Assembly: GCA_016934325.1 (NCBI GenBank)
Contig: JAFGSV010000012.1
Coordinates: 1 to 44,372, forward strand
Direction: 5' to 3'
Length of the DNA: 44,372 nt
Source: Candidatus Aenigmatarchaeota archaeon
GTDB lineage: Archaea; Aenigmatarchaeota; Aenigmatarchaeia; QMZP01; JAFGSV01
How positions within the stretch are numbered: position 1 is the stretch's first letter; every line of letters starts with the position of its first letter. The position numbers were made by a program, and so were the translations under genes. Below the pieces are notes generated by a model, which saw nothing but the letters and a program-made list of their open reading frames with translations, ran no database searches and was not told where the DNA came from. Positions 11,538 to 44,372 of this stretch are shown here, one piece after another.

Positions 11538-12490
11538 AAACAGTAAAACCAACCAAGAAAGAGCCATCTGCTAAAGAACTTGAACAACTTTATTGGAAGC
11601 ATGGATTATCGACACGAAAAATTGCAGCTAACTTTGGTGTTTCCCAAAAGCCTGTTTTACGTTTAATGAAAAATTATGAAATTCCACGCAGAGACCGTAT
11701 TGAAGCTGTGATCAGGGGCTGCCGTAAATATAACAAAAACCCGTTTTCTGGAAATATCAATGAGAAAGCTTACCTTCTTGGACTAGCATTTGCCGATTTA
11801 CGTGTGAGAAAACATGGATACCAAATAGATATTGGTGTAAGCACAACCCACCCTTCTTTTTCATTTCTCTTCAAAAAATTGTTTAGGAAATATGCTCCTA
11901 TTCGTGAAAACCCCTATTATAATAAATGGACAAAGCAACACTGTTGGAGATTGGAGGCACAACTCCATCCCTCGTTCGATTTTCTATTAAGCCCAAAGCT
12001 GGTCCCAAAATGGATTATAGAAAATGAGGTGGCATTTCTCAACTTTCTGGCTGGTTATTCGGATGGTGAAGGAATTATATCGATTTGTAGAAATTCCAAG
12101 AGATGCGTGTCTTTTGTTTTTGCGATATCAAGCGAAGATAGGAACATTTTATTTTCAATTTTTCAAGGCTTGAAGAATCTTGGCTTTCATCCCACCTTCA
12201 GAGTGCTCAGATCGGCTGGTGATATGAATGAATTTCGCGGGAAACAACTTGTCTATAAAAAAGACCATTTGATGGTGAGATTAAAAAGAAGAGCTGACGT
12301 CCTTAGACTGTTGAAGATATTGCCCATAAGGCATCCGGAAAAAATTAAAAAGAGAAAACTGATGTTTGAACTGGGGGATAGGATTTACATAACAGATGTC
12401 ATGGATTCTTGGTTAAAATTGAAAGACGAGATAAAAAGTAATGTCAATCGCTATGTTTCCGAGGCAGCTTTTGAGTTACTTGACCGTTGA
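11513..12490 (+). CDS. LAGLIDADG homing endonuclease with HTH domain
   Basis: This 325-residue protein has two LAGLIDADG-type motifs: Y-L-L-G-L-A-F-A-D at residues 87-95 and F-L-A-G-Y-S-D-G-E-G at 178-187. Both acidic residues (Asp95, Asp184) are kept, so it may be active. An N-terminal helix-turn-helix (about 33-52, S-T-R-K-I-A-A-N-F-G-V-S) precedes them and could add DNA contacts. It is free-standing, not inside an intein or a recognisable intron. Base composition is visibly AT-richer than the neighbours, a sign of transfer. Its 3' end overlaps the 3' end of hmgA by 40 bases on the opposite strand. The start ATG lies inside the upstream small gene. Confidence 0.9.
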   Translation: MPQKTTRIKTVKPTKKEPSAKELEQLYWKHGLSTRKIAANFGVSQKPVLRLMKNYEIPRRDRIEAVIRGCRKYNKNPFSGNINEKAYLLGLAFADLRVRKHGYQIDIGVSTTHPSFSFLFKKLFRKYAPIRENPYYNKWTKQHCWRLEAQLHPSFDFLLSPKLVPKWIIENEVAFLNFLAGYSDGEGIISICRNSKRCVSFVFAISSEDRNILFSIFQGLKNLGFHPTFRVLRSAGDMNEFRGKQLVYKKDHLMVRLKRRADVLRLLKILPIRHPEKIKKRKLMFELGDRIYITDVMDSWLKLKDEIKSNVNRYVSEAAFELLDR

Positions 12491-28898: not shown

Positions 28899-29398
28899 AG
28901 AAGCTGATGATAAGCCCAGGGATAGTGATTGCGAACGCGCTGGTCATAGGACTGGCTGCGTTATCGTACCTGAGCCTGTACTACATACAGCCGTTATTCC
29001 CTCTTAACGGCGTGGTGACGGACGACAGGACCCCGACGTTCGCGTGGTCAGGGCAGGGCACAAGCTTTGAGCTGCTGATTGACGACGAGCCAGGCTTCAG
29101 TTCCCCGATGATTTTCGATGTGAAAGGGAACAGATACAGCATGGGCCAGGAGCTCGATTTCGGGACCTACTGGTGGAAGGTCAGGGTGCAGGGAGCGGAG
29201 AGCCGGGCCATGAGATTCGACCTGGTGTCGACTGTGGCCCTGTCGAGGCCCGATCCGGGCATGATCAGTAACACGGGCAACACGGCGCTGCTCGTGCACA
29301 GGGGTGGCCTGTCCGCCATAACGGGAGCGGTGACGCTTGGAGTAAACCAGACGCTGGACATAGGAGATGGAGAGGATGTCAAGGCAGAGCAGAAGTGA
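28895..29398 (+). CDS. Membrane-anchored Ig/FN3-like protein
   Basis: This 167-residue protein has a signal-anchor helix at about 7-30 and one extracellular Ig/FN3-like domain: R-T-P-T-F-A-W-S, F-E-L-L-I-D-D, and F-G-T-Y-W-W-K-V-R-V. A short Gly/Thr-rich tail follows. The ATG at 28895 overlaps the stop of the giant gene as ATGA, so translation is coupled and a partnership with the giant is plausible. No family was recognised. Confidence 0.8.
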   Translation: MKKLMISPGIVIANALVIGLAALSYLSLYYIQPLFPLNGVVTDDRTPTFAWSGQGTSFELLIDDEPGFSSPMIFDVKGNRYSMGQELDFGTYWWKVRVQGAESRAMRFDLVSTVALSRPDPGMISNTGNTALLVHRGGLSAITGAVTLGVNQTLDIGDGEDVKAEQK

Positions 29399-29402
29399 TG
29401 GG

Positions 29403-30617
29403 ATGATGAACGCCAAGCTGATATTGGCAGTCATGCTTGCGTTGCTGGCCTTCTCCGGCAGCGCAGGCCTTGCCAGCGCCCTCGGGGTCACCCCCGGCCG
29501 GACGACCGTAGACTTCGAGCCCGGCCTGGAGAAGAAGCTGAGCTTCACCATAACGAACAACGAGCACAAGAAGTTCGACGCATACATATACATTGAGGGA
29601 GACCTCAGCGAATACATAACGCTGGACCGCGACATACTGAGCTTCGAGGAGACGGACAACTCCAAGGGCGTCGAATACACGGTCAGGCTGCCGGAAAGGA
29701 TCGATACCCCGGGAGACCATTGGGCGAAGATAATAACGCTCGAGCTGCCGAAGGGGTTCTCCGAATCGGAAGGGAACATGCAGGTGACGGGAACCGTGGC
29801 AGTCATACACCAGCTCAGGGTGAAGGTGCCTTATCCGGGCAGGTACGTGCAGCTCGACCTGCTCGTTCAGGACGCCCCGCCGAACGAATCCGTCAGGTTC
29901 TTCGTCAAGCTGTACAACCTCGGCAAGGAGGACATCGCGAGCGCCCGGGCGACGATCCAGATCCTGGGGCCGACCAACGAGGTCATCGACACGATCGAGA
30001 CCGGCTCGACGGCCATCAAGTCGATGGAGAGGGGCGAGCTGACCGCCGCATGGAAGGCAGATGCGAACCCCGGGATGTACCACGCCGCCGTGACCGTCAG
30101 ATACGACGGCGAGATAGGGAAGGTGGAGAAGAACTTCTACGTGGGGAACATGCTCATCGAGGTCCTCGGCGTCTCCGTCAAGGACTTCAGGCTTGGCGGC
30201 GTCGCCAAGTTCGACATCCAGGCGGAGAGCATGTGGAACCAGCCCATCGAGGACGTGTACGCCCAGATGGTCATCAGCGACGCGAGCGACAACAAGGTGG
30301 CCGATTTCAAGTCCGCCTCGACGGACGTCGCGCCTTATGAGAGGACCCATCTGTACGCTTACTGGGATACCGAGGGCGTCAACGAGGGAGACTATGTCGC
30401 CAGGCTGACCCTGAACTACGCTGGCCGCACGGTCGAAAGGGAGCTCAAGACCAAGGTCGGCCTCGAATCCATAATAACCGAGATCGTCGGCGTTAGCGTG
30501 GGAGCCGTCACGGGCGAGGGGAGCGCGACCGATCAGAGCATGATAATGATCCTCGTCGTGGCCCTCATATCTATAAACCTGGCGTGGTTCATGTATTTCA
30601 GGAAGAGGATAAGGTGA
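29403..30617 (+). CDS. Secreted multi-Ig membrane protein, paralogue 1
   Basis: This 404-residue protein has a signal peptide (about 1-26, ending L-A-S-A), then three or more Ig-like beta-sandwich domains and a C-terminal membrane helix (about 377-397) with a short basic tail. The first domain starts L-G-V-T-P-G-R-T-T-V-D-F-E-P-G, a pattern recalling chaperone-like or NEW3-type Ig domains. A conserved P-Y-P-G-R-Y-V marks the second. It is paralogous to the gene at 36258. Two ATG codons (29403, 29406) open the frame. It sits in the giant operon, 4 bases after the previous gene. A role in helping surface proteins fold or assemble is inference. Confidence 0.82.
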   Translation: MMNAKLILAVMLALLAFSGSAGLASALGVTPGRTTVDFEPGLEKKLSFTITNNEHKKFDAYIYIEGDLSEYITLDRDILSFEETDNSKGVEYTVRLPERIDTPGDHWAKIITLELPKGFSESEGNMQVTGTVAVIHQLRVKVPYPGRYVQLDLLVQDAPPNESVRFFVKLYNLGKEDIASARATIQILGPTNEVIDTIETGSTAIKSMERGELTAAWKADANPGMYHAAVTVRYDGEIGKVEKNFYVGNMLIEVLGVSVKDFRLGGVAKFDIQAESMWNQPIEDVYAQMVISDASDNKVADFKSASTDVAPYERTHLYAYWDTEGVNEGDYVARLTLNYAGRTVERELKTKVGLESIITEIVGVSVGAVTGEGSATDQSMIMILVVALISINLAWFMYFRKRIR

Positions 30618-30619
30618 AA

Positions 30620-30790
30620 ATGGCATACGAGAGATACGTCAAGAGGAACGGGAAGAGGTACGGGCCCTACGTATACAGGAGCTGCAGGGACGAGAACGGC
30701 AAGGTGAAGTCCGTGTTCGTGAAGAAAGGGAAACCGGCTGGCCCGAAGAAGGGAAGGCTCCGCTTCCTGGGCAAATTTAATAGCATATAG
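30620..30790 (+). CDS. 56-residue stand-alone G-P-Y domain protein
   Basis: It begins M-A-Y-E-R-Y-V-K-R-N-G-K-R-Y-G-P-Y, nearly the same as the first 40 residues of the giant at 17640. It is basic and has no membrane helix, so it is probably cytoplasmic. The motif recalls the DUF6788-like G-P-Y-Y-Y pattern found in small archaeal and bacterial proteins. The ATG follows the previous stop by 2 bases. It is the last gene of the giant operon. It could interact with the giant's inner end or bind nucleic acid; neither is shown. Confidence 0.75.
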   Translation: MAYERYVKRNGKRYGPYVYRSCRDENGKVKSVFVKKGKPAGPKKGRLRFLGKFNSI

Positions 30791-30809
30791 TATACATATT
30801 AATTAACAT

Positions 30810-33800
30810 ATGCTTACGAAGTCCTGTTTCCTGCTGTTGGCATTCGCTGCCCTCGCCTTGCTTGCCAGTTCAGGCCCCGCCGGGGCCGCCGTCGAGGTTT
30901 CTTCTTGCATGGAGCTCGCTTCGGCGGACACCACCTATATTCTCAACAGGAGCCTCGTTAACGAGAACGTCACGGATGAGGGTGGGTGGTGCATGGGCAT
31001 CACCGCCGGCAACGTGACGCTGGACTGCCAGGGGCACGCCATAGCCAACGGCACCCTCGAGATATCAGGCATCTATTCCAACATGACCGGCACGACCATC
31101 ATGAACTGCAACGTTAGCATGTCCGGCTCTTCGGGAGGGTACGGGATAGAGCTCAGCAGCTCGGACGGTTCATCGATAATCAACAACATGCTGAACGGCC
31201 AGAATTACGGATTGTTGCTGACATCTTCAGACGATACAAGTATAGAGAACAACACGGCAAGCTCTAATACCGGTTACGGGATTATCCTGTCCTCTAGCTC
31301 GAACAACACGGTCACCGGGAACACGATCTGGAACTGCTCCTCGGGCGGCTCTTTCGCCTGCGTTTACATCGACGAGTCGGACGGCAACGTCTTCAGCGGC
31401 AATAACATAAGCAGGAGCTCCGGCTACGGCATTTGGATACGCTCTTCCGGTTCCGGGGACCATTCGAGCAACAACATATTCATGAATACCAACATGACGG
31501 AAATTGGAGGGACAGGAGTGCTCCTGGATGACGATGGCCTCAGCGAGAACGTGAACAATACTTACCTCAACTTCACCTACGGCAACGAGACCGTCGAAAC
31601 CAGATCGCAGCTAATCAGGAGATGGCACTACAGGGCTCTCGTGACGCTTCCAAGCGGGGTCTCGGCCCCCGGCGTGGCCGTGCAAGCCTATAACAGCAGC
31701 GGGGCGCTGATAGAGAACATGACGTCCGGCGTCACCGGATGGACAGCCATCGGCTCGCTGATAGATTACGTCAACAGCGGCGGGAGCAAGTATTCCTACT
31801 CTAACTATACCGTAAACGTGACGCGCCGGGGCTTCATTCCGGGTACCGAGACTTACAACGTTTCGGCGACCTTCAGCAACATTAGCGATGTCATCTCCAT
31901 GGGGAGATTCTATTCCTTCATTGAGAACAGTTCGCTGAGCAGCTCCACGTGGTCGCTGGCGGTCGCCGACCTGGACAACGACGGCTATCTCGATTACATA
32001 GCGGGGAATTTCAACCAGCAGAACAGCATATATATGAACAACGGGCTTGGTTCGTTCACCAATACCGAAAACTCGGATGAGAGCGATGCGACGTACTCGA
32101 TAGCCGCGGCGGACCTCAATAACGACGGATATATTGATTATATCGCTGGCAATTACGGCCAGCCAAACAGGGTATATCTTAACGATGGCAGCGGCAGCTT
32201 CATTCTCCACGAGAACAGCACCGAGAGCAACAACACGCGATCGATTGCCATCGCCGACCTGGACAACGACGGATACGTGGATTACATCGAAGGGAACTCA
32301 AACCAGAAGAACTGCATTTATATAAACAACGGTTCAGGCAACTTCGCTCTGCTCGAAACGAGCGCGGAGAGCGAGGGCACTTTCGCCCTGGCCATCGGGG
32401 ACCTGAACGGTGACGGTTACCCGGATTACATCAGCGGGAACTATAACCAGCAGAACAGGATATACATCAACAACGGGTCCGGGCACTTCACGTCGCTCGA
32501 GACGAGCGCGGAGAGCGACACGACCAGATCCATAGCCATCGCAGACCTGGACAACGACGGCAATCCGGATTACATCGCCGGCAACGAGCCGAGCCCGAAC
32601 GGCCATGACAGGGCCTACATCAACAACGGGAGCGGGCATTTCACCCTCAATTACACCAGCTTGTCGCAGTCCGCGACCTACGGGCTTGCCATACTGGACA
32701 TCAATCACGACGGGCACCTTGATTACATAGCCGCGAGCGTCGGTCCCGCGAAGAACAGGATATACCTGAGCGACGGCCTGTCCAATTTCACCTTGTACGA
32801 GAGTTCGGAGAAGAAGAACTCCACCTACAGCGTTGCCGTTGGCGATTTCGACAGGGATGGCGACCTGGATTACATTGGAGGGAATAGCGGGGAGAACAAC
32901 CTGTACTTCAACAACCGGGACGGCAGCGATTACGTAATAATACTGATCAAGGCGGCAAGCCCGTACATTAACAGGGACGCGATCGGCACGAGGGTCTATG
33001 CCAGCCTCGGGGGCACCCCCGTCGGTTACCGGGATGTCACCGCCGCAGACTCCTCCCGGGACGGGGCTCTGGAGCTGCATTTCGGGCTGGCGAGCGGGAG
33101 CACGTACGACATAAACGCGACCTTCGCCACCGGGAAGATGGTTAGCTGCAGCGTAGCGCCCCCCATCAACTTCACCATGTTCGAGAACGGTACCTCGACG
33201 AACGGCGCGGGCTGCTACGTGGTCGACTTCCCCCCTCAGATTCTGCTCATGGCTCCAAGCGACAATACCGCGACCATGGACATGGACATCAATTTCAGCT
33301 GCGGATTCTCCGACGACAACATGCTCACGAACGTGGCGATTTATGTCTGGAACAGCACGAGCGACGTCTATTACTACGACACGAAGGCCGTCTCCGGCAC
33401 GTCGAACCAGAGCGACTGGACGCTGCTGTCGATGACCCCCGACCTTTACATGTGGAACTGCCTGGTGTCCGATAACGCGTCGAAGGTAAACCAGCAGCCC
33501 GTCAATTACAGCCTCAGAATCGTCATCAAGAACAGCCTCTACCTCAAGCTCGTCCTGAACAACACGGACAGCACGGTATACATACCCGGAGTAGGCGAGC
33601 AGAATTCGAGCACACTCCCCTACCAGTTCTATGGGAGCCCCGAGCACTATTACCTCGCGTCTTACCTCGGCAACGCGCTGTCCGGCCTGGTCTTCAGCAT
33701 GAGGATCCCGAGGGGCATCTCCGTTGGCAGGAACGCGAGCGAAGGGACCCATTACATCGCCGTTGAACAGTACATGGACGACAGCAGGGTGTTCCTGGTC

Positions 33801-34049
33801 CATACGCTGGGGAACTGGAGGGAGATAGAGGGCAGGATAGACATGATCGAGACGGGCCGCTTCCTGACAAATATCCTCCCCAGCTTCTCTTACGGCCTGG
33901 GCAACCGGTACTCCCTGGACCTGGCCCTCGGATATGCCGACATAGACCTGCAGGGGAAGCTGATGCTCAGGAAGGGCACCCACAAGATCGTGCTCGAGAA
34001 CAACGGCACTTCGGGGGGCAAGCCCGTCGTTGTCATAAGCAGGGAATGA
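30810..34049 (+). CDS. Secreted beta-helix/FG-GAP/ASPIC-UnbV-like protein
   Basis: This 1079-residue protein has a cleavable signal peptide (about 1-27). A NosD-like beta-helix (about 30-260) ends in Q-L-I-R-R-W-H-Y (264-271), followed by an Ig-like domain. Seven FG-GAP/VCBS repeats follow (about 376-705), each with a Ca-binding D-L-D-N-D-G-Y-x-D-Y-I-x-G-N-type loop. Then comes a segment like the ASPIC/UnbV domain (N-R-D-A-I-G-T-R-V, about 720-725), an Ig-like domain and an unrecognised C-terminal domain of about 160 residues. No membrane anchor is seen, so it is probably released or held by partners. A TATA-like ATTTAATA (about 30776-30783) suggests its own promoter. Confidence 0.92.
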   Translation: MLTKSCFLLLAFAALALLASSGPAGAAVEVSSCMELASADTTYILNRSLVNENVTDEGGWCMGITAGNVTLDCQGHAIANGTLEISGIYSNMTGTTIMNCNVSMSGSSGGYGIELSSSDGSSIINNMLNGQNYGLLLTSSDDTSIENNTASSNTGYGIILSSSSNNTVTGNTIWNCSSGGSFACVYIDESDGNVFSGNNISRSSGYGIWIRSSGSGDHSSNNIFMNTNMTEIGGTGVLLDDDGLSENVNNTYLNFTYGNETVETRSQLIRRWHYRALVTLPSGVSAPGVAVQAYNSSGALIENMTSGVTGWTAIGSLIDYVNSGGSKYSYSNYTVNVTRRGFIPGTETYNVSATFSNISDVISMGRFYSFIENSSLSSSTWSLAVADLDNDGYLDYIAGNFNQQNSIYMNNGLGSFTNTENSDESDATYSIAAADLNNDGYIDYIAGNYGQPNRVYLNDGSGSFILHENSTESNNTRSIAIADLDNDGYVDYIEGNSNQKNCIYINNGSGNFALLETSAESEGTFALAIGDLNGDGYPDYISGNYNQQNRIYINNGSGHFTSLETSAESDTTRSIAIADLDNDGNPDYIAGNEPSPNGHDRAYINNGSGHFTLNYTSLSQSATYGLAILDINHDGHLDYIAASVGPAKNRIYLSDGLSNFTLYESSEKKNSTYSVAVGDFDRDGDLDYIGGNSGENNLYFNNRDGSDYVIILIKAASPYINRDAIGTRVYASLGGTPVGYRDVTAADSSRDGALELHFGLASGSTYDINATFATGKMVSCSVAPPINFTMFENGTSTNGAGCYVVDFPPQILLMAPSDNTATMDMDINFSCGFSDDNMLTNVAIYVWNSTSDVYYYDTKAVSGTSNQSDWTLLSMTPDLYMWNCLVSDNASKVNQQPVNYSLRIVIKNSLYLKLVLNNTDSTVYIPGVGEQNSSTLPYQFYGSPEHYYLASYLGNALSGLVFSMRIPRGISVGRNASEGTHYIAVEQYMDDSRVFLVHTLGNWREIEGRIDMIETGRFLTNILPSFSYGLGNRYSLDLALGYADIDLQGKLMLRKGTHKIVLENNGTSGGKPVVVISRE
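31302..31469 (+). repeat. 168-bp dispersed repeat, copy in FG-GAP gene
   Basis: Partner of 27186-27353 in the giant gene; the same beta-helix segment in a different protein. Confidence 0.85.
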
Positions 34050-34061
34050 GCGGGTCCGCTC
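34048..34061 (+). terminator. Hairpin at end of FG-GAP gene
   Basis: GAGCGG and CCGCTC form a 6-base stem with a 2-base loop, starting within the stop codon. It lies between convergent genes. No T-run follows, so its role as a terminator is uncertain. Confidence 0.3.
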
Positions 34062-34109
34062 GTATGTCCGACCCCTGGCTCCATGGCCTTCCGCAAAATG
34101 AATTAAGCG

Positions 34110-34544
34110 CTAGACAATGACCTCTTCCTCGCCCTCGGATAGCAGGGCGTCATCGAATAGCAGCCTGACCTTTATTAGGTGCGTGCCGGCGCCGACCTCC
34201 CTGCTGAGGTTGAAATGGGACACAGGAATCATATACATATGGTTGCCTGCATAGCCCGGTCCCCGGTAACCGATCTCGGGCACCTCCCCGCTGACGATCT
34301 CGAACGGGGCTCCCGAGCTCTCAACGAATCTGGAGAAGGGCATCGTGGAAGACCCGCCGCCGAGAACGACCTCCACGGTGGAGTTCACCGGGATGATGAC
34401 GCCCTCGCCGATCGTGACCTTGACGTCCGCATCGATTACGCTCCCGGCCCCGACGGCAAAGCCGGTGATTCCGGGCCTGAGCCAGAACAGCGACAGGATC
34501 GCCAGGCTGATCACGGGGAGCACGACCGAGACGTTCCTTGTCAT
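34110..34544 (-). CDS. Signal-anchored small protein with T-G-F-A motif
   Basis: This 144-residue protein has one N-terminal hydrophobic helix (about 5-22) followed directly by G-I-T-G-F-A-V, then a beta-rich outer domain. I chose the ATG at 34544, nearest the hydrophobic segment; another ATG at 34568 in frame is possible. It is transcribed away from the gene at 34645, with a shared upstream region. No family was recognised. Confidence 0.75.
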   Translation of the reverse strand: MTRNVSVVLPVISLAILSLFWLRPGITGFAVGAGSVIDADVKVTIGEGVIIPVNSTVEVVLGGGSSTMPFSRFVESSGAPFEIVSGEVPEIGYRGPGYAGNHMYMIPVSHFNLSREVGAGTHLIKVRLLFDDALLSEGEEEVIV

Positions 34545-34582
34545 GGGACAGCCGCCATTCCTTGGCATTTCAAGGTTCTTAC

Positions 34583-34623
34583 TTGACTTTGACCGTTGAC
34601 TTTGACCGATATGTTTTTATATT
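34583..34623. promoter_or_regulatory. Divergent promoter with 13-bp tandem repeat
   Basis: TTGACTTTGACCG occurs twice head to tail (34583-34595, 34596-34608), directly before a TATA-like TTTTTATATTTT (about 34613-34624) that serves the plus gene at 34645. The reverse reading offers TATAAAAA to the minus gene. The repeat position suits an activator or repressor site controlling both genes. Confidence 0.5.
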
Positions 34624-34644
34624 TTGATTGGCAGAATATATACT

Positions 34645-34878
34645 ATGACGAGAATTTCGAAGAACATTCTGGCTGCCTTGCTCGTAGTAACCGTCGTCAT
34701 ATCAGTTTTCGGCACCTGGGTAACACTCATGGTGACGACAGGCCAGTTCAAGCTGCCTGTGCCTCCCGAGCCCCCAACGGCGCATGGGAAGGTCAGTGTC
34801 AATGTCTTGTCTGATGTCGTCCTTCCTCCGGCAGAACCCTCAGAGACCGAAGGCAGGGTAGCGGTATTTGTTAAATAA
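34645..34878 (+). CDS. 77-residue signal-anchored peptide
   Basis: One membrane helix (about 8-32, with F-G-T-W-V-T-L) is followed by T-T-G-Q-F and a Pro-rich outer segment. The membrane segment is similar to those of the next two genes (S-L-A-G-T-F-T-T-L, S-L-A-G-T-L-A-S-F). The ATG is about 26 bases after the TATA-like box. A truncated or miniature member of the same anchored family is likely. Confidence 0.7.
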   Translation: MTRISKNILAALLVVTVVISVFGTWVTLMVTTGQFKLPVPPEPPTAHGKVSVNVLSDVVLPPAEPSETEGRVAVFVK

Positions 34879-34890
34879 TTGGAGGATTAA

Positions 34891-35481
34891 ATGACCGAAA
34901 TTAACAATGAAGTGCTTGCAGTCTTGGTGATTGCCGCTATGGCAATCTCTCTTGCAGGGACATTCACCACACTGACGCTTGTGACAGAGCCTGAGATGAT
35001 AACAGGATTTGCGGCGCATACGGGTCTCACCAACGTCTCGATCCCGAGGTATGGGGACATCACCCTTAATGTCGCCTTGGTGAACTTCAATGACATCGCT
35101 ACCGGGCAGTCGAACTCAACGAGCGACTATGACCCGCACCCGTTCGTGCTAGAGAACAACGGATCCACGTTCGTAAACGTCACGGTCGGCGCGGATGCCT
35201 TATGGGTCTATGGTGGCTTCCCCGCTACTACCTACCAGGTGAACGCTTCCGATGACAACGAGACAGGCACGCTGAGCGGCACTGACGGCTATGCAGCGTC
35301 CTTTTTCAACATGCCGGCCAGCGGCGGGAATCTCATCCAGTGCATGAACTACAGCGACACAACCGACGCCATGAACGTCCACATAAGCATAACAGTGCCC
35401 GGCGGCGAGACATCCGGCTACAAGGAATCGACAGTGACTTTCACCGGAAGCGATGCTCTGCAGGGGAACTGCGGAGAATAG
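34891..35481 (+). CDS. Signal-anchored beta-sandwich protein, paralogue A
   Basis: This 196-residue protein has a signal-anchor helix (about 7-30), then M-I-T-G-F-A-A-H and a beta-rich domain with sequons and a C-terminal disulfide candidate (Cys in Q-C-M-N-Y-S and in G-N-C-G-E). It resembles the last 140 residues of the giant at 17640 (F-V-N-V-T-V-G-A-D-A-L-W compared with F-I-D-I-N-I-S-A-E-D-L-L-W). A Shine-Dalgarno GGAGG lies 5 bases before the ATG. It is followed by a tandem paralogue with long identical DNA blocks. It could be a small surface-layer or pilin-like subunit (inference). Confidence 0.88.
   Translation: MTEINNEVLAVLVIAAMAISLAGTFTTLTLVTEPEMITGFAAHTGLTNVSIPRYGDITLNVALVNFNDIATGQSNSTSDYDPHPFVLENNGSTFVNVTVGADALWVYGGFPATTYQVNASDDNETGTLSGTDGYAASFFNMPASGGNLIQCMNYSDTTDAMNVHISITVPGGETSGYKESTVTFTGSDALQGNCGE
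35005..35088 (+). repeat. 84-bp exact repeat, paralogue A
   Basis: Identical by eye to 35645-35728. It encodes the T-G-F-A-A-H segment and the first strands of the outer domain. Sequence just outside has diverged. Confidence 0.9.
35414..35480 (+). repeat. 67-bp exact repeat, paralogue A 3' end
   Basis: Identical by eye to 36060-36126. It covers the last 22 codons, up to the second base of the stop codon. Confidence 0.9.
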
Positions 35482-35536
35482 GCGCAAACACGCGTACTTC
35501 ATTTTTCATTTTTAAATTCGTGCGGAGGACTGGGCA

Positions 35537-36127
35537 ATGGTAGGCAATAGGACGCTCACGGTATTGGTATTGGTTTCTATGTCAGTGTCGTTGGCGGGCA
35601 CCCTTGCTTCCTTCACCCTGATCAGGGAGCCGATCCCGGCAACGGGATTTGCGGCGCATACGGGTCTCACCAACGTCTCGATCCCGAGGTATGGGGACAT
35701 CACCCTTAATGTCGCCTTGGTGAACTTCCATGAGATTGCGGTGGGGGAAAGGAACACCACGAGCGACTATGACCCCCATCCGTTCGTGATCGAGAACAAC
35801 GGTTCGACGTTCGTCAACGTCTCGGTGGAGGCGGAAGACTTGTGGGTCTATTCAGGCAACCCCGGAGTCGATTACCAGATAAACGCCTCGGACGACAACG
35901 AGACCGGCACGCTGAGTCCCATTGATGGATGGGCCGCACAAATGATGAACATGCCGGCCACCGGAGCGGCTCAGGATCTGATCAGGTGCATGAACTACAG
36001 CGACACAACCGACGCCATGAACGTCCACATTAACATATCCGTGCCCGGCGGCGAGACAGCCGGCTACAAGGAATCGACAGTGACTTTCACCGGAAGCGAT
36101 GCTCTGCAGGGGAACTGCGGAGAATAA
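35537..36127 (+). CDS. Signal-anchored beta-sandwich protein, paralogue B
   Basis: This 196-residue protein is the tandem paralogue of the gene at 34891, of identical length. It has a signal-anchor helix (about 5-28), then A-T-G-F-A-A-H and the same beta domain. The membrane helix and the middle of the outer domain have diverged, while the start and end of the outer domain are identical at DNA level. GGAGG lies 8 bases before the ATG, and a T-rich TATA-like TTTTTAAAT (about 35508-35516) could give its own promoter. The pair may be two subunits of one structure (inference). Confidence 0.88.
   Translation: MVGNRTLTVLVLVSMSVSLAGTLASFTLIREPIPATGFAAHTGLTNVSIPRYGDITLNVALVNFHEIAVGERNTTSDYDPHPFVIENNGSTFVNVSVEAEDLWVYSGNPGVDYQINASDDNETGTLSPIDGWAAQMMNMPATGAAQDLIRCMNYSDTTDAMNVHINISVPGGETAGYKESTVTFTGSDALQGNCGE
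35645..35728 (+). repeat. 84-bp exact repeat, paralogue B
   Basis: Partner of 35005-35088. Confidence 0.9.
36060..36126 (+). repeat. 67-bp exact repeat, paralogue B 3' end
   Basis: Partner of 35414-35480. Confidence 0.9.
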
Positions 36128-36257
36128 GACCGGGTATCACAAATCATCTTTTCCATCACCATATCCTTCCCTTGACATTACTTTTCGTGACCATCATCGG
36201 TTGAATAACATCGATAGACATCAAATGTTATTAAGTAAAAAATGTCATAATATTGTT

Positions 36258-37403
36258 ATGTGGGGGCAGGAGCACGCCTTTCTGGTTGTTCTGATCATGG
36301 CGCTTTCATTATTGATATCGCCAGTGAACGGTTCGGCTCTGGGATTGTCCCCAAGTTCCTTCGTACTGGACTTCGAGCCCAATCTGAACAAAACGTTCTT
36401 CATCTCGGTCAGGAGCACGAAGGATTTGGACATATACGTCAAGGGCGACCTGCAGGAATATTTCAAGGTGGAGAAGACGTTCCTCGATTGCCCCTGTAAC
36501 CTCGAGCCGTTCAGGGTCGATATAAACCTGCCTGAGAAGCTGGACAGGCCCGGAATCCATGAAACCAGGGTGGGTGTCATTGAGACTATTCCATCCGAAG
36601 GGGGCACTATAGGCGCCAGGGCGGCTTTCGAGGGCGTCTACATATTCAAGGTGCCTTACCCCGGCCGATACGTGAAGATCGACCTCAAGGCAGATAGCGT
36701 CAAGGTGGGGGATACTGTCAGCTTCCTGGTCACTGCGAACAGCGCCGGAACGGAGAACGTGACGGGGACGCTGAAGCTGGAGATTTTCGATTCCAACGGC
36801 GTCAAGAAGGCGACGCTCTATTCCGATAACAACTTCGTGGAATCAAAGAAGAGCATCGAGATAAGGCTATCGTGGGACACCGAAGGCATGGTGGAGGGAA
36901 TCTACACCGCGAAGGCCACGTTCGAATACGGGGGCGACGAGCCCGCCGTTATGGAGAAAGGCTTCAGGGTAGGCGACATCCTCATAAGGATAATAGATGT
37001 GCTGAACAACGAGACGGTGGAAGACGAGATCGCGAAGTTCGTCGTGAAGGTCGAGAGCTTCTGGAACTCAAGGATTAACGACGTGTATGCCGCCCTGGAC
37101 GTCAGGAAGGACGGCAGGAATGTCGGAGAATCCAAGAGCAGCAACGTCAATGTCGAACCATGGTCCGTGGAGGACATGAACATATACTGGGATACGTCTG
37201 GCATAGAGCCTGGCACTTATGACGCTATCATTACGGTTTATTATCAGAACAAGACGGCGGAGAAGACGATCGAGACCAAGATAGTTCAGAAGCCGCAGTT
37301 CGACATCGTTTCAATTCTGCTGGTAATAATGGCCCTGTCAGTGGCGATTGCCGCCTTCCTGGCTTATCGTTTCAGAAGAAAGAAGAAGGGAAGGGCGCCA
37401 TGA
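36258..37403 (+). CDS. Secreted multi-Ig membrane protein, paralogue 2
   Basis: This 381-residue protein has a signal peptide (about 1-24), Ig-like domains and a C-terminal membrane helix (about 350-372) with a basic tail. It matches the gene at 29403 in architecture and in motifs: L-G-L-S-P-S-S-F-V-L-D-F-E-P, P-Y-P-G-R-Y-V, and an S-F-W-N/S-M-W-N segment before the last domain. I chose the ATG at 36258 because it opens directly into the signal peptide and lies about 28 bases after a TATA-like TTATTAAG. The upstream in-frame extension has no signal character. The stop overlaps the next start as ATGA. Confidence 0.83.
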   Translation: MWGQEHAFLVVLIMALSLLISPVNGSALGLSPSSFVLDFEPNLNKTFFISVRSTKDLDIYVKGDLQEYFKVEKTFLDCPCNLEPFRVDINLPEKLDRPGIHETRVGVIETIPSEGGTIGARAAFEGVYIFKVPYPGRYVKIDLKADSVKVGDTVSFLVTANSAGTENVTGTLKLEIFDSNGVKKATLYSDNNFVESKKSIEIRLSWDTEGMVEGIYTAKATFEYGGDEPAVMEKGFRVGDILIRIIDVLNNETVEDEIAKFVVKVESFWNSRINDVYAALDVRKDGRNVGESKSSNVNVEPWSVEDMNIYWDTSGIEPGTYDAIITVYYQNKTAEKTIETKIVQKPQFDIVSILLVIMALSVAIAAFLAYRFRRKKKGRAP

Positions 37404-37834
37404 CGCGAAAAATCGATGGCAGAAGGGTCGTCCTGCTGCTGGCGCTCGCTGCCGTCCTTTCTTATCTCGTGACGATGCTGGCTTTCTATTTCGTATATAC
37501 CTCGAGCGTGTATGAGACAAGGGAGCTGGGCATGGACGTCTATGTCTTCAAGACCGCCGGATTGAACGTCGATGACGACGCCATCCATTTCGGAAAGATA
37601 CCTCCGGGAGCCTCCGGAAGGCGGAACATCACGATAGACAACGACGCCGTCCCGAACCTCGTCAGCCTGGAAGCGTATGGCGACATCGCGGAATGGGTCT
37701 CCGTCAGCCACAACGATTTCATTATAGACGCGCATGAGAGCAGGAACGTAACCGTTTTCCTGCAGGTCCCTGAGGATGCAGAAGTTCCGGGTTACAGGAG
37801 CGGGACCCTTAGGATAATATTCAGAAAGGTATAG
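37400..37834 (+). CDS. Signal-anchored Ig-like protein
   Basis: This 144-residue protein has one membrane helix (about 8-31) and one outer Ig-like domain with F-G-K-I-P-P-G and R-R-N-I-T-I-D-N-D, ending in a strand typical of NEW3-like folds (R-S-G-T-L-R-I-I-F). The F-G-x-I-x-P-G pattern also occurs in the giant's C-terminal domain (F-G-S-I-F-P-G). It is coupled by ATGA to the multi-Ig gene upstream. No specific function is assignable. Confidence 0.8.
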   Translation: MTRKIDGRRVVLLLALAAVLSYLVTMLAFYFVYTSSVYETRELGMDVYVFKTAGLNVDDDAIHFGKIPPGASGRRNITIDNDAVPNLVSLEAYGDIAEWVSVSHNDFIIDAHESRNVTVFLQVPEDAEVPGYRSGTLRIIFRKV

Positions 37835-37927
37835 AAGGCCTGGGCATGGCATATAACACATGGCATGAATTCCTGCTCATGCGCCCCGATTTTGCGCTTT
37901 CGGTCCCCAACCCCTTACCGTTTACAA

Positions 37928-37935
37928 TTTTATAG
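37928..37935 (+). promoter_or_regulatory. TATA-like box for Cys-rich protein gene
   Basis: TTTTATAG lies about 25 bases before the ATG at 37957 with no Shine-Dalgarno, implying a leaderless mRNA. Confidence 0.5.
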
Positions 37936-37956
37936 ATTTCCCGCCAAATAATAAGT

Positions 37957-39969
37957 ATGCCCCATTTCAGGATAAGCATAGACAACAACATCCTTGCCGC
38001 TCTGGCGATAATCCTGACTATAACATCCATGTTCAACTTCATTATCGCGCTCGGGGTCGTGGAGACTAGGCGTATGGAGGCGGCGGCCTCCGCTTCAGGC
38101 GAAGTCAAGCTCTGCGCCAGCTTCATGCCGAACCTGACCTTTGACGATTACCATCTGATCTCGGAGGAGGTCATGTTCGTCTACGACGTCAACGTATCGG
38201 AGAACGAGACCCTTGTGAATTTCAGCGACACTACGCCCAAGTTCGACATAAACCTCACCTCGGGAATCATCAACTTCACCCCCGACGACGCCGATGTGGG
38301 GGTGTGGAACGTCACCATAATAGCCACCGAGACCGTTTGCTCCCTACAGGATTACAAGGTCATGACGTTCAACGTGACCCCGATGAACGAGTCTCCCGTT
38401 CTGATATCCCTGGTGTTCACCAATGGCAGCAGCAACGGAACCAATGCGACCTATTACTTCCCGGTGAACGTCGCCATCGAGCTCTACGAGGATGTTTGGT
38501 ACAATTTGTCCGTCATCGCATACGATCCCGACCTGCCCAATGACACCCTCACTTACGGGGTCCTATGGTACGATCCGCCGGGGATATTCGTGCTCGACAC
38601 GGCGACGGGGAAGTCCTCCTTCATGCCCGTCCAGTCCGAGGTCGGGGATCACATGGCGAATTTCAACGTCTTCGACCTGAGCTACCTGCTGGATAGTTCC
38701 GATGCCAACTTCACGGTTTTCAACACGAACGACGCCCCAGTGCTCCTTAACAAGACCGTCCTGAGATCCCAGACCGCTTATTCTGGCGAGCCTTACGTCC
38801 TGTACGTGAACGCGAGCGACGAGGACGGGGACACGATGGCCTTCGACGTGCAGTTCATCGACTGCAACCAGACCCTGAGGAACCTGAGCGACCAGAACTG
38901 CAGCATATTCAGGATCAACCACACCCTTACCTTCCCGACCCTGGTGTCAGGCGTGATAACGTTCACACCACTGCTTATTGACGTGGGGAACTACACCGTG
39001 AACTTCACCGTGGCCGACGGCAACGGCGGCGTCGACTGGCAGCTGGGCAACTTCACCGTCGTGGAGTTCATGAACCACGAGCCGAACATAACGGACTGGT
39101 ACCCGAGGAACGCGGGAGCCATCAAGAACGCCACGCATAACGTGACGACATCGGAAGGGCAGTCGCAGCACTTCAACATAACGGTCTACGATCCTGACTG
39201 CGGTTGGGGCTGCGCGAGCTCGAGGTGGTACAGGGACGGCGCGGAGCTCGTGGCCTACCAGAACCAGTACAACTTCACCTGGCTCACCAAGTACTCGGAT
39301 TCCGGGATATACAACATAACCGTGATCGTGAGCGATGGCGAGCTCACGGACTCGGTCGAATGGAAGCTGGTTATCTTGGATGAGGAGCCCCCGAAGCCGC
39401 CGCCAAGCGGAGGCGGAGGCATCCTGGGAGGTATCACGCCATGCCAGCCGAACTGGAGATGCACGGTATGGTCGGTATGCTCCAATGAGGGGGTGCAGAT
39501 CAGGGAGTGCATGGACCTCAGCTCCTGCAACTCGACCCTGGGCATGCCCGAGGTGAGCAGGATATGCACGTATACCCCCTTTCCCGACTGCTACGACAGC
39601 ATCAGGAACTGCCACGATGGGCTGTGCGAGATACTGACTGACTGCGGAGGCCCCTGCCCGCCATGCCCGACATGCAGCGACGGCATCCAGAACTGCCATA
39701 TCATGGGGGAGTGCGAGGAGAAGGTCGACTGCGGAGGCCCCTGCCCGCCATGCCCGACGATACCCCGGGAAGCGGTATGTGGCAACCAGGTCTGCGAGGC
39801 GGGGGAGATCTATGACTGCATGGAGGACTGCCTCGAATTCTGGATAGACATGGCCATATTCGTAGTCATTGTCATACTATTAATAGTAATCTCTGTCTTA
39901 CTTTACGTATACAGGAAGGAAACGGTCCTGCTCTATGTCTACAGGAGGGTAAGGGGAGAACGGGCATGA
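37957..39969 (+). CDS. Surface protein with cadherin-like and Cys-rich domains
   Basis: This 670-residue protein has an N-terminal signal-anchor helix (about 11-35). Several cadherin/He-PIG-like Ig domains follow (about 45-480) with sequons and D-E-D-G-D-T loops. Then come a Pro/Gly hinge, a thrombospondin-1-like segment (C-T-V-W-S-V-C, about 500-505) and two Cys-rich repeats each ending C-G-G-P-C-P-P-C-P-T (about 545-605). A second membrane helix (about 628-650) precedes a short basic tail. Both ends can therefore be membrane-bound, forming a loop outside. The stop overlaps the next start as ATGA, tying it to the scaffold-like protein. Confidence 0.88.
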   Translation: MPHFRISIDNNILAALAIILTITSMFNFIIALGVVETRRMEAAASASGEVKLCASFMPNLTFDDYHLISEEVMFVYDVNVSENETLVNFSDTTPKFDINLTSGIINFTPDDADVGVWNVTIIATETVCSLQDYKVMTFNVTPMNESPVLISLVFTNGSSNGTNATYYFPVNVAIELYEDVWYNLSVIAYDPDLPNDTLTYGVLWYDPPGIFVLDTATGKSSFMPVQSEVGDHMANFNVFDLSYLLDSSDANFTVFNTNDAPVLLNKTVLRSQTAYSGEPYVLYVNASDEDGDTMAFDVQFIDCNQTLRNLSDQNCSIFRINHTLTFPTLVSGVITFTPLLIDVGNYTVNFTVADGNGGVDWQLGNFTVVEFMNHEPNITDWYPRNAGAIKNATHNVTTSEGQSQHFNITVYDPDCGWGCASSRWYRDGAELVAYQNQYNFTWLTKYSDSGIYNITVIVSDGELTDSVEWKLVILDEEPPKPPPSGGGGILGGITPCQPNWRCTVWSVCSNEGVQIRECMDLSSCNSTLGMPEVSRICTYTPFPDCYDSIRNCHDGLCEILTDCGGPCPPCPTCSDGIQNCHIMGECEEKVDCGGPCPPCPTIPREAVCGNQVCEAGEIYDCMEDCLEFWIDMAIFVVIVILLIVISVLLYVYRKETVLLYVYRRVRGERA

Positions 39970-41036
39970 TTATCGAGAGGCTGGTGCTGATAGCCATTGC
40001 AGGCGCTCTTGTCGCGGTCGTTTCTTTCCTCTTTGTTAAATACAGGAAGCTGCACGGGAGGAAGGAAGCCGAGCTTGGAAAGGAGGACGTGATAGGCAGG
40101 CTCTTCCTGAGGAAGCTCATGGGTCTGCAGGCTACGGTAGGCAAGGAGGACCCTGAGCAGATTTTCAAGAGGCTCAACAGGATGCTCAAGAGCTTCTTCA
40201 GCGAGCTGTACGACATAAGATACCAGTTCGACTACCTTGAGCTGAACGAGGAGCTTGGCAAGAAGGGGGTTTCGGAGCAGATCCGGAACGACGTGATAGA
40301 ACTGGCCATGCAGATGTCGCAGACTGAGTACGGCGGAGAGAAGATCACCAACATCACCCTTCATTCCCTCGTAGATAAATCCATCCGGGTCGTGAACAGG
40401 GTCACTGGGCAGCAGCCTGAGCCTTCATACGGCAAGCCGCCCGCTGAGGCGCCGCCTGCCGTGAAAAAGGCGCTTGCAAAGAAGGAGCTTCCTCCAAGAG
40501 AGAAGATGAAGGCCGCGGAGAAGCTTCCGCCAGCCGAGGTTGAGAAGAAAGAGAAGGCGCCGCCCGCTGAGAAACCGCCGGTCCCGGCCGAGGAAGAGAA
40601 GCCCCCAGCCGAGGAGCTGCCGCCTGAGAAGAAAGCGCCTGTCATGGAGCTTCCGCCGCCGGAGAAGGAGGAAGCCGCGCCCGAGAAGAATGTGGAAGCG
40701 GTCCCGGAGAAGAAGAGGGAAGCTGCGCCTAAGGTGAGGGAAGAGAAGGCGGCCTCTGCCGTGAAGATGGTGGAGGAGGCCGGACAGGGGATAGTCATAC
40801 CGGCGGACGAGAAGGGCAAGATCGACAAGATCAGGCGCGGGCTCGTGGAAGCCGAGCAGGAGCTCAGGAGCAAGGACTATGACAATGCGATGGAAAGCTA
40901 CACCGAGCTCAAGGCGCTCTACGACAGCCTCGGTCCGGCCGTCAGGGTGCAAATGTATGATGACATAAAGCGGATAATAAGCATATACAACACCCTGCTG
41001 AAGGAGTACAAGGACACTCTGCTCGGCAGCGAGTGA
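39966..41036 (+). CDS. Membrane-anchored cytoplasmic scaffold-like protein
   Basis: This 356-residue protein has one helix at the N-terminus (about 5-25), then a helical domain (about 30-140). A Pro/Glu/Lys/Ala-rich flexible linker (about 150-275) leads to a C-terminal helical hairpin domain resembling TPR-like folds (about 285-350, Y-D-N-A-M-E-S-Y-T-E-L). Most of it should be inside the cell. It is translationally coupled to the Cys-rich surface protein and converges on the VWA operon. It may link outer structures to the cytoplasm (inference). No family was recognised. Confidence 0.82.
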   Translation: MIIERLVLIAIAGALVAVVSFLFVKYRKLHGRKEAELGKEDVIGRLFLRKLMGLQATVGKEDPEQIFKRLNRMLKSFFSELYDIRYQFDYLELNEELGKKGVSEQIRNDVIELAMQMSQTEYGGEKITNITLHSLVDKSIRVVNRVTGQQPEPSYGKPPAEAPPAVKKALAKKELPPREKMKAAEKLPPAEVEKKEKAPPAEKPPVPAEEEKPPAEELPPEKKAPVMELPPPEKEEAAPEKNVEAVPEKKREAAPKVREEKAASAVKMVEEAGQGIVIPADEKGKIDKIRRGLVEAEQELRSKDYDNAMESYTELKALYDSLGPAVRVQMYDDIKRIISIYNTLLKEYKDTLLGSE

Positions 41037-41058
41037 TTTCTTTCTTAGACGCCATCAA

Positions 41059-41967
41059 TCACGGTATCGTCCTGTATTTGCTGTTTACCAGGACCAGTTC
41101 TGTCAGGAAGAGCGCGACCGCGATGAGCATGAGGTAAGACGAGAGGTCCAGGGACAGCTGCCTGGTGGTCGACACCGCTATGTCCTCGTAAGCCCGGAGC
41201 AGCTCTTCCTCGGTCTCCGCAAGGTAGAACCTCCCGCCGGTCCTCTCGGCTATGAGTTGCAGCGTGCCGCTATCGAGACCCGACACGAAGGTAGTGTTCG
41301 CTACAACGGCGCCCTCCTCCGTCCCGATGCCTATGGTGTGTATGACGATGCCGAAGCCCGACGCGTAATCCAGGGCCTCCTCGACCCCTATCCCGACGTT
41401 GTTCTGGCCGTCCGTCAGCAGCACTATGACCTTTTCCCTGTCGCTCGCGACAAGCATGTTGGCGGAGCTCACTATCGCCTCCCCGATGGCGGTCCCTCCC
41501 GCCAGCTCGATGTCGACGCCGGACACGGCGGCCTTGACGTCATCCATGTCGTAAGTGAGCTCCTGCCTGACGAAGGACGCCCCGGCGAAGCTAATGACCC
41601 CCACCCGGGTATCCGCCGGCAGCGTGTCCACGAAGCTCAATGCGGCATCCTTGGCCGCCTCCACCCTGCTTGGGGGGTAGTCCTGGGCGAGCATGCTGGC
41701 GCTCGCGTCTATCGCGAGGGCATAGTCCGCCACGCCCCCGGCCCCTTCGTAGATTAACACGGTACCCGTCAGGGCGAAAACGAGGAAGATGAGAGTGAGC
41801 ACCCTCAGTATCAGCAGCGGGTAGTTCTTGCTCAGTATCTTCTTGCCGAAGATGCGCTCGAGGGCCTCGTAGTTGGCGAACAGCATGGCCTTCCTCTTGA
41901 TCTTCCTGAGGCTGACGAAATGGATGAGCATGATCACCGGCACTATCAGGAAGAACCACAGGTACAT
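41059..41967 (-). CDS. BatA-like VWA-domain membrane protein
   Basis: The protein has 302 residues from the ATG at 41967. Helices at about 2-19 and 51-72 precede a von Willebrand A domain with an intact MIDAS motif, D-A-S-A-S (87-91). T-D-G-Q-N-N follows later, and a C-terminal helix lies near 275-292. This is the BatA-type layout found in MoxR-DUF58-VWA operons. The frame is open further upstream. A Shine-Dalgarno-like GGAGG lies 8 bases before an in-frame ATT at 41991, while the ATG has no such site, so the true start may be non-ATG. The third gene of the operon; it probably acts in metal-dependent protein binding at the membrane. Confidence 0.88.
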   Translation of the reverse strand: MYLWFFLIVPVIMLIHFVSLRKIKRKAMLFANYEALERIFGKKILSKNYPLLILRVLTLIFLVFALTGTVLIYEGAGGVADYALAIDASASMLAQDYPPSRVEAAKDAALSFVDTLPADTRVGVISFAGASFVRQELTYDMDDVKAAVSGVDIELAGGTAIGEAIVSSANMLVASDREKVIVLLTDGQNNVGIGVEEALDYASGFGIVIHTIGIGTEEGAVVANTTFVSGLDSGTLQLIAERTGGRFYLAETEEELLRAYEDIAVSTTRQLSLDLSSYLMLIAVALFLTELVLVNSKYRTIP

Positions 41968-41981
41968 AGGGCTTACGAACG

Positions 41982-42875
41982 TTATCTGAATAGCAATTCC
42001 CTCCTCTTCAGGAACTTGAGCACGGGTAGTATGAAACCCTCCTTGGTCGATATCTCGAGGCAATCCCACCGCGCGCTGTTGAAGACCTCCTTCAGCCTCC
42101 TCTCCTCTTCGGCCACGTAGCTCTCGAACCCCAGCCTCGCCTTGTCGGCGCAGTCTATCAGCATCTCCTTGGCGGAATAGGGATCGGACACGACCACCCG
42201 GCCCGACTCGGGCGGCAGCCGCTGGTCCCTCGGGTCCCTGACTATGACGGCGACCCCGTCGAACTTGCCGCTGACGTCCTTCACGGTCTTCTCCCAGCCC
42301 CTCTCCATGCCTATGAAATCCGATATGAGGAAGACGAGGCACTTATCGCCCGTCGTTCTCTTCAGGAAATTCAGCGCGGCGCTTATCTTGAAGCCTCCCC
42401 CGTAGAATCTAGGAGTGAGCAGATGCTTGAGCAGGACGTAATGATGGTTCTTGCTCTTCCCGGTTGGCAGGAACTTGACGACCTTGTCCGTGAACAGAAC
42501 CAGCCCTATCTTGTCGCCGCTTCTCAGGACGAAGTGGCTCAGGGCAGCGACGAGCTCCGCCGCGTACTCGTGCTTGAGCTTTTCGGTGGAGCCGAACAGC
42601 ATGCTGTTGCTGACGTCCACCATGAAGAAGACGTCCATGTCCCTCTCCTCCCTGAACTGCCTTATTAGCAGCCGGTTCGCCCTCTTGCTTGCCTTCCAGT
42701 CGATTTCCGAGGCGTCGTCGCTGCTCACGTACTCCCTGAAATCCTCAAAGTCCAGGCCCTTGCCCTTGAATATCTTCCTGAAGCGGCTCACTATGTGGGT
42801 CTCTGTCAGCACGCCCAGCGCAACGTCCAGATCCCTCATGACAGAATTAACGTTTATCCTTAGCTCTGCTACCAT
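41982..42875 (-). CDS. DUF58 / VWA-like protein
   Basis: This 297-residue protein has the DUF58 signature F-K-G-K-G-L-D-F-E-D-F-R-E-Y with D-W-K-A-S-K-R (about 37-65) and a VWA-like MIDAS D-V-S-N-S (87-91). It is soluble, with no clear membrane helix. In known MoxR operons DUF58 proteins act with the AAA+ ATPase, often in assembling or modifying protein complexes. The ATG follows the moxR stop codon with no gap (TAAATG), so translation is probably coupled. Confidence 0.93.
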   Translation of the reverse strand: MVAELRINVNSVMRDLDVALGVLTETHIVSRFRKIFKGKGLDFEDFREYVSSDDASEIDWKASKRANRLLIRQFREERDMDVFFMVDVSNSMLFGSTEKLKHEYAAELVAALSHFVLRSGDKIGLVLFTDKVVKFLPTGKSKNHHYVLLKHLLTPRFYGGGFKISAALNFLKRTTGDKCLVFLISDFIGMERGWEKTVKDVSGKFDGVAVIVRDPRDQRLPPESGRVVVSDPYSAKEMLIDCADKARLGFESYVAEEERRLKEVFNSARWDCLEISTKEGFILPVLKFLKRRELLFR

Positions 42876-43865
42876 TTAGGGCACCGGTACCTTTGAGAGG
42901 ACCTCAGTTATGATCTGGTCAGTGCTCACGTTCTCCGCCAGCCCCTCGTAGTTGAGTATTATCCTGTGCCTGAGGACGTTGTGCGCCACCTCCTTGATGT
43001 GCGCCGGGGTGACGAACGTCTGCCCCTTGATCATGGCGAAGGCCTTGCTTGACATGAAGAGGAATATGGATGCCCTGGGAGAAGCCCCCCACTCGATGTA
43101 TTTGCCCAGTTCGATGCCGTACTTTTTCGGGTCCCTGGTGGATTCGACAAGCTCGACTATGTACTGCTCGACCTCCTTGCTGAGGAATACGCTCTTCGAG
43201 GTCTCCTGCATCTCCATTATCTTCTCCAGGTTCGTCACGGCGTTCAGCGGGTAATCCTCGAAGCGCTTCAGCTGGATGTTCCTCTTGAGAATGTCCTTCT
43301 CCTCATCGAAGGTCGGATAGACCATCCTGATCTTGAACAGGAACCTGTCGATCTGCGCCTCCGGGAGGGGATACGTCCCGCTCGTCTCTATCGGGTTCTC
43401 CGTCGCCAGGACGAAGAAAGGCCTCATCATGGGGAACGTCTCCTTGCCTATGGTCACCTGCCTCTCCGCCATGGCCTCCAGCATGGCCGACTGGACCTTT
43501 GGAGGAGCCCTGTTGATCTCGTCCGCGAGCACGTAGTTGGCGAAGACGGGCCCCTTTATGACATAGAAGCCCTTCTGCTCGTTGTACGCGGTCAGGCCCG
43601 TTATGTCGGTCGGCAGCAGGTCCACGGTGAACTGTATCCTCTGGAAAACCCCTCCCGTCACCTTGGCCAGCGTCCTGATGAGCAGGGTCTTTGCGATGCC
43701 GGGGACGCCTTCCACGAGAATATGGCCGTCCGCGAGCAGGCCGTTCATTATGGTGTCTATGGTGTCCTCCTGGCCCACGACCACCTTCGATACCTCCTTC
43801 TTGATGTCCCGCATTACGCCCTGATATTCCTTTATCTTTGACTTCAGGGCCGCGTCGCCGTCCAT
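42876..43865 (-). CDS. moxR: MoxR-type AAA+ ATPase
   Basis: The protein has 329 residues from the ATG at 43865. Walker A is G-V-P-G-I-A-K-T (53-60) and Walker B is V-L-A-D-E-I-N-R-A (112-120). Further motifs are A-T-E-N-P-I-E, the Q-I-D-R-F-L-F arginine-finger region and the sensor-2-like G-A-S-P-R-A. MoxR ATPases act as chaperone-like machines that mature specific complexes. It is the first gene of a moxR-DUF58-VWA operon facing the surface-protein island. A TTG at 43874 in frame is an alternative start. The TATA-like box (about 43889-43895) favours the ATG with a leaderless mRNA. Confidence 0.95.
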   Translation of the reverse strand: MDGDAALKSKIKEYQGVMRDIKKEVSKVVVGQEDTIDTIMNGLLADGHILVEGVPGIAKTLLIRTLAKVTGGVFQRIQFTVDLLPTDITGLTAYNEQKGFYVIKGPVFANYVLADEINRAPPKVQSAMLEAMAERQVTIGKETFPMMRPFFVLATENPIETSGTYPLPEAQIDRFLFKIRMVYPTFDEEKDILKRNIQLKRFEDYPLNAVTNLEKIMEMQETSKSVFLSKEVEQYIVELVESTRDPKKYGIELGKYIEWGASPRASIFLFMSSKAFAMIKGQTFVTPAHIKEVAHNVLRHRIILNYEGLAENVSTDQIITEVLSKVPVP

Positions 43866-44056: not shown

Positions 44057-44372
44057 ATGGCGGATTTTGCTAGATATGTTGCGATTCTGATGATCGTTCT
44101 TTCCCTAGCCGCAGCCGCCTCTTTAATCAGGGCCGGTATAACAGGATTCTTCGCGTACTCGTCGGGCACGAACTCGAGCCTCGGCATATGGGACCAGACG
44201 GAGAGCAAGGGCGGCGCAATAACGAGGTATACATATCCAACATCATTTGAACAGACCGGTGAATGCTATAAGTCGCAGAGCCTGGCTGACATATTATTTT
44301 TCGCAAACTACAGCAACTCGTCGGACGTTCCCATAAACGCCGGCATGGGGAATTGCCAAATCAGATATGACA
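44057..44372 (+). CDS. Signal-anchored protein, runs off right edge
   Basis: 105 codons are visible without a stop. A hydrophobic helix (about 6-25) is followed by G-I-T-G-F-F-A-Y, then a polar Ser/Thr/Asn-rich outer part with two Cys. It belongs by its N-terminus to the same anchored group as the genes at 34110, 34891 and 35537. AT-rich elements upstream (about 44020-44027 and 44038-44049) may hold the promoter. The 43875-44056 stretch before it shows no convincing gene. Confidence 0.75.
   Translation, partial: MADFARYVAILMIVLSLAAAASLIRAGITGFFAYSSGTNSSLGIWDQTESKGGAITRYTYPTSFEQTGECYKSQSLADILFFANYSNSSDVPINAGMGNCQIRYD

Follow-up and report, generated by a model that had tools for sequence, protein, structure and literature searches.

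In the archaeal genome analysed here, a small set of proteins, mostly encoded in one syntenic surface-protein locus, carries a conserved T-G-[F/M/L/Y] motif in the flexible linker that joins an N-terminal membrane anchor to the outer domain. We tentatively read this short linear motif as a docking strand for a surface fibre of the donor-strand type. The window, that is, the whole stretch of DNA analysed, comprises the first 44,372 bases of a 116-kb contig (C27) from a 1.24-Mb genome estimated to be 79% complete. Among named genomes, the nearest relatives of its HMG-CoA reductase come from two Candidatus Aenigmatarchaeota assemblies (64% and 63% identity), which, for one gene, makes the uncultured host probably an Aenigmatarchaeote.

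The first-pass annotation had listed T-G-[FM] behind a hydrophobic N-terminal helix in five proteins of the window. Reading of the frames finds every quoted string present as written, including the weaker TTGQF in the 34645 gene, and in all five proteins the tripeptide lies in an exposed linker past an N-terminal membrane helix. The number of independent cases is nevertheless four rather than five, because the 34891 and 35537 proteins are tandem paralogues (75% identity).

The largest carrier is a giant anchored surface protein of 3752 aa (17640..28898, + strand). It consists of a cytoplasmic YGPY-type head, a transmembrane helix (about aa 57-73), the motif QPTGMII (PTGMII at aa 76-81; codons 17868-17876) and a large ectodomain with Big_9, Laminin_G_3 and beta-helix regions. 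Its C-terminal domain (28458..28874, + strand) is homologous to the predicted pilin-like domain of the 34891 protein (E 1.0e-18, 35% identity). The cytoplasmic segment with which the protein opens (17640-17800) reads MAYKRYIRKNGKVYGPYIYKSIRDENG, and a free 56-aa copy of it (MAYERYVKRNGKRYGPYVYRSCRDENG) stands alone at 30620-30790, where a Pfam search gives no match. In the relatives L148, L151 and L152, related heads precede the transmembrane helix and are followed by a domain of the 34110 type.

The remaining carriers are smaller or only partly contained in the window. A protein of 144 aa on the minus strand (34110..34544) has a helix, GITGFAV in a disordered linker (codons 34466-34458) and a compact Ig/Fn3-like beta domain. 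The predicted donor-strand-type pilin of 196 aa (34891..35481, + strand) bears MITGFAAH (codons 35002-35010), and its tandem paralogue (35537..36127, + strand) bears ATGFAAH (codons 35642-35650). At the end of the window, the N terminus of a 1433-aa anchored surface protein that continues beyond it (44057..44372, + strand) comprises a helix, GITGFFAY (codons 44141-44149) and a first Ig-like domain. The variant TTGQF belongs to a short protein of 77 aa (34645..34878, + strand) whose helix is related to that of 34891; its counterparts in relatives keep the T/S-G but not the F/M. The outer domains had been described as different, which holds in part. The conserved spot does span unrelated outer domains, although 34891 and 35537 are paralogous and the giant protein ends with the same domain. 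The S-L-A-G-T-like patch noted in several helices is partly real, in that all members of the 34891 family keep a serine in the helix, and 34645 has a helix of similar kind. In a 167-aa protein (28895-29398) and its relatives, the helix is followed by PLNGVV, PYTGAV or PLNGMV, which might be a weakened version of the motif.

AlphaFold models place the motif between the helix and the folded domain. In 34891 the helix spans residues 6-28, residues 30-53 including ITGFAA are disordered, and a beta sandwich begins at residue 57; in 34110 the helix covers residues 9-19, residues 23-33 with the motif are mostly disordered, and a confident domain follows. The motif therefore sits in an exposed link outside any fold. 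A helix C-capping role was set aside, as the motif of the 34891 family lies several residues beyond the helix. Membrane anchoring is the simplest reading of the helix itself and fits each of the docking, processing and inherited-anchor explanations weighed below.

How far the anchors are related differs between families. Profile-profile alignment with hhalign matches the 34110 family to the 44057 family along all 33 residues of the anchor (E 6.7e-6), as in RRAYILGLVSLLFIFSAIINPEITGF beside DRRVYILPIVSVLFVIFSFTNPDLSGY, and both may thus have inherited one anchor module. The 34891 and 44057 families align over no more than seven residues at the ITGF site (E 6e-4), and between the 34891 and 34110 families the match is marginal (E 0.035). 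On this basis one could propose that helix and juxtamembrane TG[FM] form one homologous membrane-exit element, spread by duplication and shuffling, and that it has a structural role at the helix end and in seating the protein at the membrane interface, with no partner involved. The resemblance between the 34645 and 34891 helices would fit as well. We consider this doubtful as a general account: it suits 34110 and 44057 but fits 34891 badly, since the latter family shares just the seven-residue motif with the others and holds it at a variable distance of several residues past the helix. Moreover, the helix drifts within families whereas T and G stay fixed.

The strong case for the motif is its conservation in relatives, as judged from sequence comparison with homologues drawn from 60 further genomes within its family, order and class. 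In the 44057 family both T and G are present in all 13 homologues, against ~25% identity over the remainder of the N-terminal region. The 34891 family keeps the glycine (G39) in 15 of 15 homologues, preceded by T in 11 and by S in 2 (T or S in 13/15), and the five homologues of the 34110 family all have the G and a T or S before it. The spot appears in relatives as ITGM, FTGL, LTGM, ATGM, DISGF, DITGF, DLSGY and GITGM, and further as FTGFF, LTGYY, LTGML and YTGMF. MAFFT alignments may be drawn to TG, but TG is seen in the raw N-termini too. A 29-position profile of helix plus TG gives 91 matches at E<=1, in 64 of 145 class genomes, compared with 42 matches in 32 of 145 for a control profile in which GT replaces TG; the best matches of this control are mostly training proteins aligned on the helix alone. 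Among the proteins matched by an earlier profile are some, apparently unrelated, with SLTGFVAYE, SITGYATVE, AITGFITY or QITGFIVS past an N-terminal helix; having been selected by the profile, they serve as illustration and not as proof. No match to the 34891 protein turned up in named genomes, and in the open-access literature we found no description of a T-G-[FM] motif.

Counting within the genome makes the weak case. Among 1,237 genes called on 1.233 Mb assembled from stretches, 219 encode proteins with an N-terminal helix, and seven of these have TG[FM] past it where 1.7-2.0 are expected (P 0.004, or about 0.05 when each set of paralogues is counted once). Of these seven, C34:14819 and C19:96518 appear to be accidental matches. 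A further genuine carrier, the sixth, is the 2090-aa protein C34:50709, a paralogue of 44057; its four hydrophobic stretches exclude it from the 219. There is no excess in the related genome G005 (1/153 against about 2.7 expected), and none of three genomes shows enrichment of the TG dipeptide behind N-terminal helices. By itself, the tally within this genome would be too weak a basis for the motif. One might accordingly suppose that TG[FM] is an ordinary tripeptide that recurs after several helices by chance and paralogy. Given the invariance in diverged homologues and the roughly halved yield of the GT control, this explanation is largely refuted and we regard it as very improbable.

The carriers are clustered, which is why five were met in a single window. 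Only about six proteins of this genome carry the motif, five of them in one locus, which contains 12 of the 219 N-helix proteins and 5 of the 7 with TG[FM] (P 4e-6). Gene order in this locus is largely kept in G003, G004, G012 and G040, although some genes were not found in some of them. It runs from the C terminus of the giant protein through 28895, 29367, usually an FG-GAP protein and the 34645/34891 group to 36258, 37400, 37957, 39966, the BatA/VWA, DUF58 and MoxR genes, and 44057. In the window, the part of the locus apart from the carriers extends over 28895..43865 and comprises 28895, 29367, the FG-GAP protein at 30810, 36258, 37400, 37957 and 39966, followed by the Pfam-assigned BatA/VWA (41059), DUF58 (41982) and MoxR (42876) genes (41059-43865). 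These last three are divergent from 44057 and belong to the conserved surface locus in relatives. The FG-GAP/NosD protein (30810-34049) has a called start at 30909, and starting at 30810 adds an ordinary signal peptide. Elsewhere in the window, a 325-aa frame with an HTH-like N terminus (11513-12490) was not called as a full gene; judging by its sequence, it may be homing-endonuclease-like or decayed.

The first-pass annotation had proposed a processing, sorting or anchoring signal specific to the lineage. What stands is conservation in membrane-anchored exported proteins across many genera of the class; what falls is a general, lineage-wide signal. An export or sorting motif of that kind is rejected, as TG is unenriched in three genomes and the motif is absent from most of the exported proteins encoded here. 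More specifically, a membrane-bound signal peptidase or rhomboid-type protease might cut at or near the bond between T-G and F/M and so free the outer domain from its anchor. In favour are the shortness of the spot, its exposed and disordered position and its conservation in proteins with unrelated domains; chemically, a cut where small residues meet a bulky one is plausible. However, no enzyme has a distribution that matches the motif, and no partner peptidase of the kind suggested is supported. Sortase (PF04203) is absent from 142 of the 145 class genomes, this one included, and present in three. Archaeosortase/exosortase (PF09721) is present in this genome and also in genomes without motif matches, and was not found in the motif carriers G003, G044, G051 and G063, whose completeness is 90% or more in each case. 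Both are rejected as partners on presence and absence, with the reservation that absence is weaker than it appears because the genomes are incomplete. Rhomboids occur in 138 of 145 class genomes, which accommodates the proposal but, being near-universal, is uninformative on a partner. No peptidase was recognised in the locus, the F, P or Y three residues ahead of a cut between G and F misfits signal peptidase I, and the locus neighbours with ordinary signal peptides (29367 and 36258) show no TG. Type IV prepilin-like cleavage between G and F was set aside, as the motif follows the hydrophobic helix rather than preceding it. Taken together, cleavage at this spot seems to us a doubtful explanation.

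The docking reading starts from the fold predicted for 34891/35537. A single AlphaFold model of mid confidence (mean pLDDT 74, pTM 0.63) resembles donor-strand pilins: Foldseek matches in the PDB are mostly such proteins, among them FimG (E 1e-3, probability 1.00), FimA, CsuA/B, the archaeal thread protein Saci_0406 (7pnb) and the P. calidifontis bundling pilin (7ueg), and represent type 1, P, Csu, Saf, archaeal thread and P. calidifontis bundling pili. The best TM-scores are 0.39-0.53. The resemblance is a lead with moderate support, because no Foldseek match lies below E 0.001 and an hmmsearch of PDB chains with the 34891/35537 sequence profile returned no pilin at E<=1. The protein also has the flexible N-terminal extension of 10-20 residues with a constrained glycine that is a trait of these pilins (residues 30-53, G39). 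A pilin fold for 34110 is not supported, its model being an ordinary complete beta domain, and this speaks against docking.

We propose, tentatively, that the linker, with its obligatory glycine and the bulky hydrophobic residue that follows, would insert as a donor beta-strand into an acceptor groove. The groove would be offered by a pilin-like domain, either that of the 34891/35537 type or its homologue closing the giant 17640 protein, and insertion would join the anchored proteins to a single surface fibre. At one position of the PapA donor strand in the P pilus there is no room for a side chain, and a glycine is needed (PMC4715182); different proteins, TapA and TasA, have similar donor strands (PMC9674648). 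Several observations count for docking: T and G are conserved against a background of 25% identity, the glycine recurs across three unrelated families, and the predicted pilin-like domain closes a giant multi-domain protein in the fashion of a tip adhesin. So do the disordered position of the motif in two families, the seven-residue match of the 34891 and 44057 families, and the clustering of carriers in a locus of conserved gene order. In internal copies of the first domain of 44057, ITHFTNYTSGANSNLTIWD or a similar stretch replaces the ITGFFAYSSGTNSSLGIWD of anchored copies (ITHFTNYTSG versus ITGFFAYSSG) and comes after another domain; by its sequence it looks like the last beta-strand of that preceding domain, that is, beta-strand-like. 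Against docking, some 34891 homologues have IG, EG or SG in place of TG, and in several relatives the giant-protein counterpart has an ordinary signal peptide and no anchored TG motif.

A bolder version of the docking proposal, which we hold to be unlikely, is that the motif is a shared donor-strand 'plug'. Any protein with an anchor and TG[F/M] would then lock into one pilin-type acceptor, giving one uncultured archaeal lineage a modular, membrane-tethered surface fibre with giant adhesins that needs neither chaperone nor usher. How DPANN archaea hold large surface proteins or attach to partners is poorly known. The surface proteins here match few or no curated families, and a search for known sorting-signal and surface-protein families in NCBIfam gave no match over the curated cut-off. 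A searchable motif and one conserved locus, with its pilin-like and giant proteins, would make the attachment apparatus of this group testable by structure prediction and proteomics.

Among known systems, LPXTG/sortase and PGF-CTERM/archaeosortase are similar in that their surface proteins have a short glycine-containing motif next to a membrane helix. Their motifs precede a C-terminal helix, whereas the present one follows an N-terminal helix, and of their enzymes sortase is missing from most genomes and the presence of archaeosortase does not follow the motif. Chaperone-usher pilins (FimG, FimA, PapA) resemble the 34891 model in predicted fold and are like 34891 in the required glycine of the N-terminal extension, and tip adhesins such as FimH parallel the giant protein, which has its predicted pilin-like domain at the C terminus of a large multi-domain chain. 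Unlike these systems, the present one has no proven chaperone, and no usher is known, as would be expected of a presumably single-membraned archaeon. Known donor-strand pilins also lose their membrane helix, whereas the proteins described here may keep an apparent anchor, which weighs against docking. The closest parallels are the S. acidocaldarius threads (Saci_0406), the bundling pili of P. calidifontis (AbpA) and bacterial TasA/TapA, which like the predicted 34891 structure combine an N-terminal helix, a flexible segment and an Ig-like beta sandwich, as judged by fold match. Archaeal threads are joined by donor strands once the signal peptide has been removed (PMC9715654). The locus resembles the TapA/TasA pair in that more than one of its proteins has a similar N-terminal segment. 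It differs from all three in that 34891 has no detectable sequence similarity to them, that no conventional cleavage site is recognised before the segment, and that the motif also occurs in giant and non-pilin anchored proteins. If the docking model is true, donor-strand assembly would extend to membrane-anchored proteins that are not pilins.
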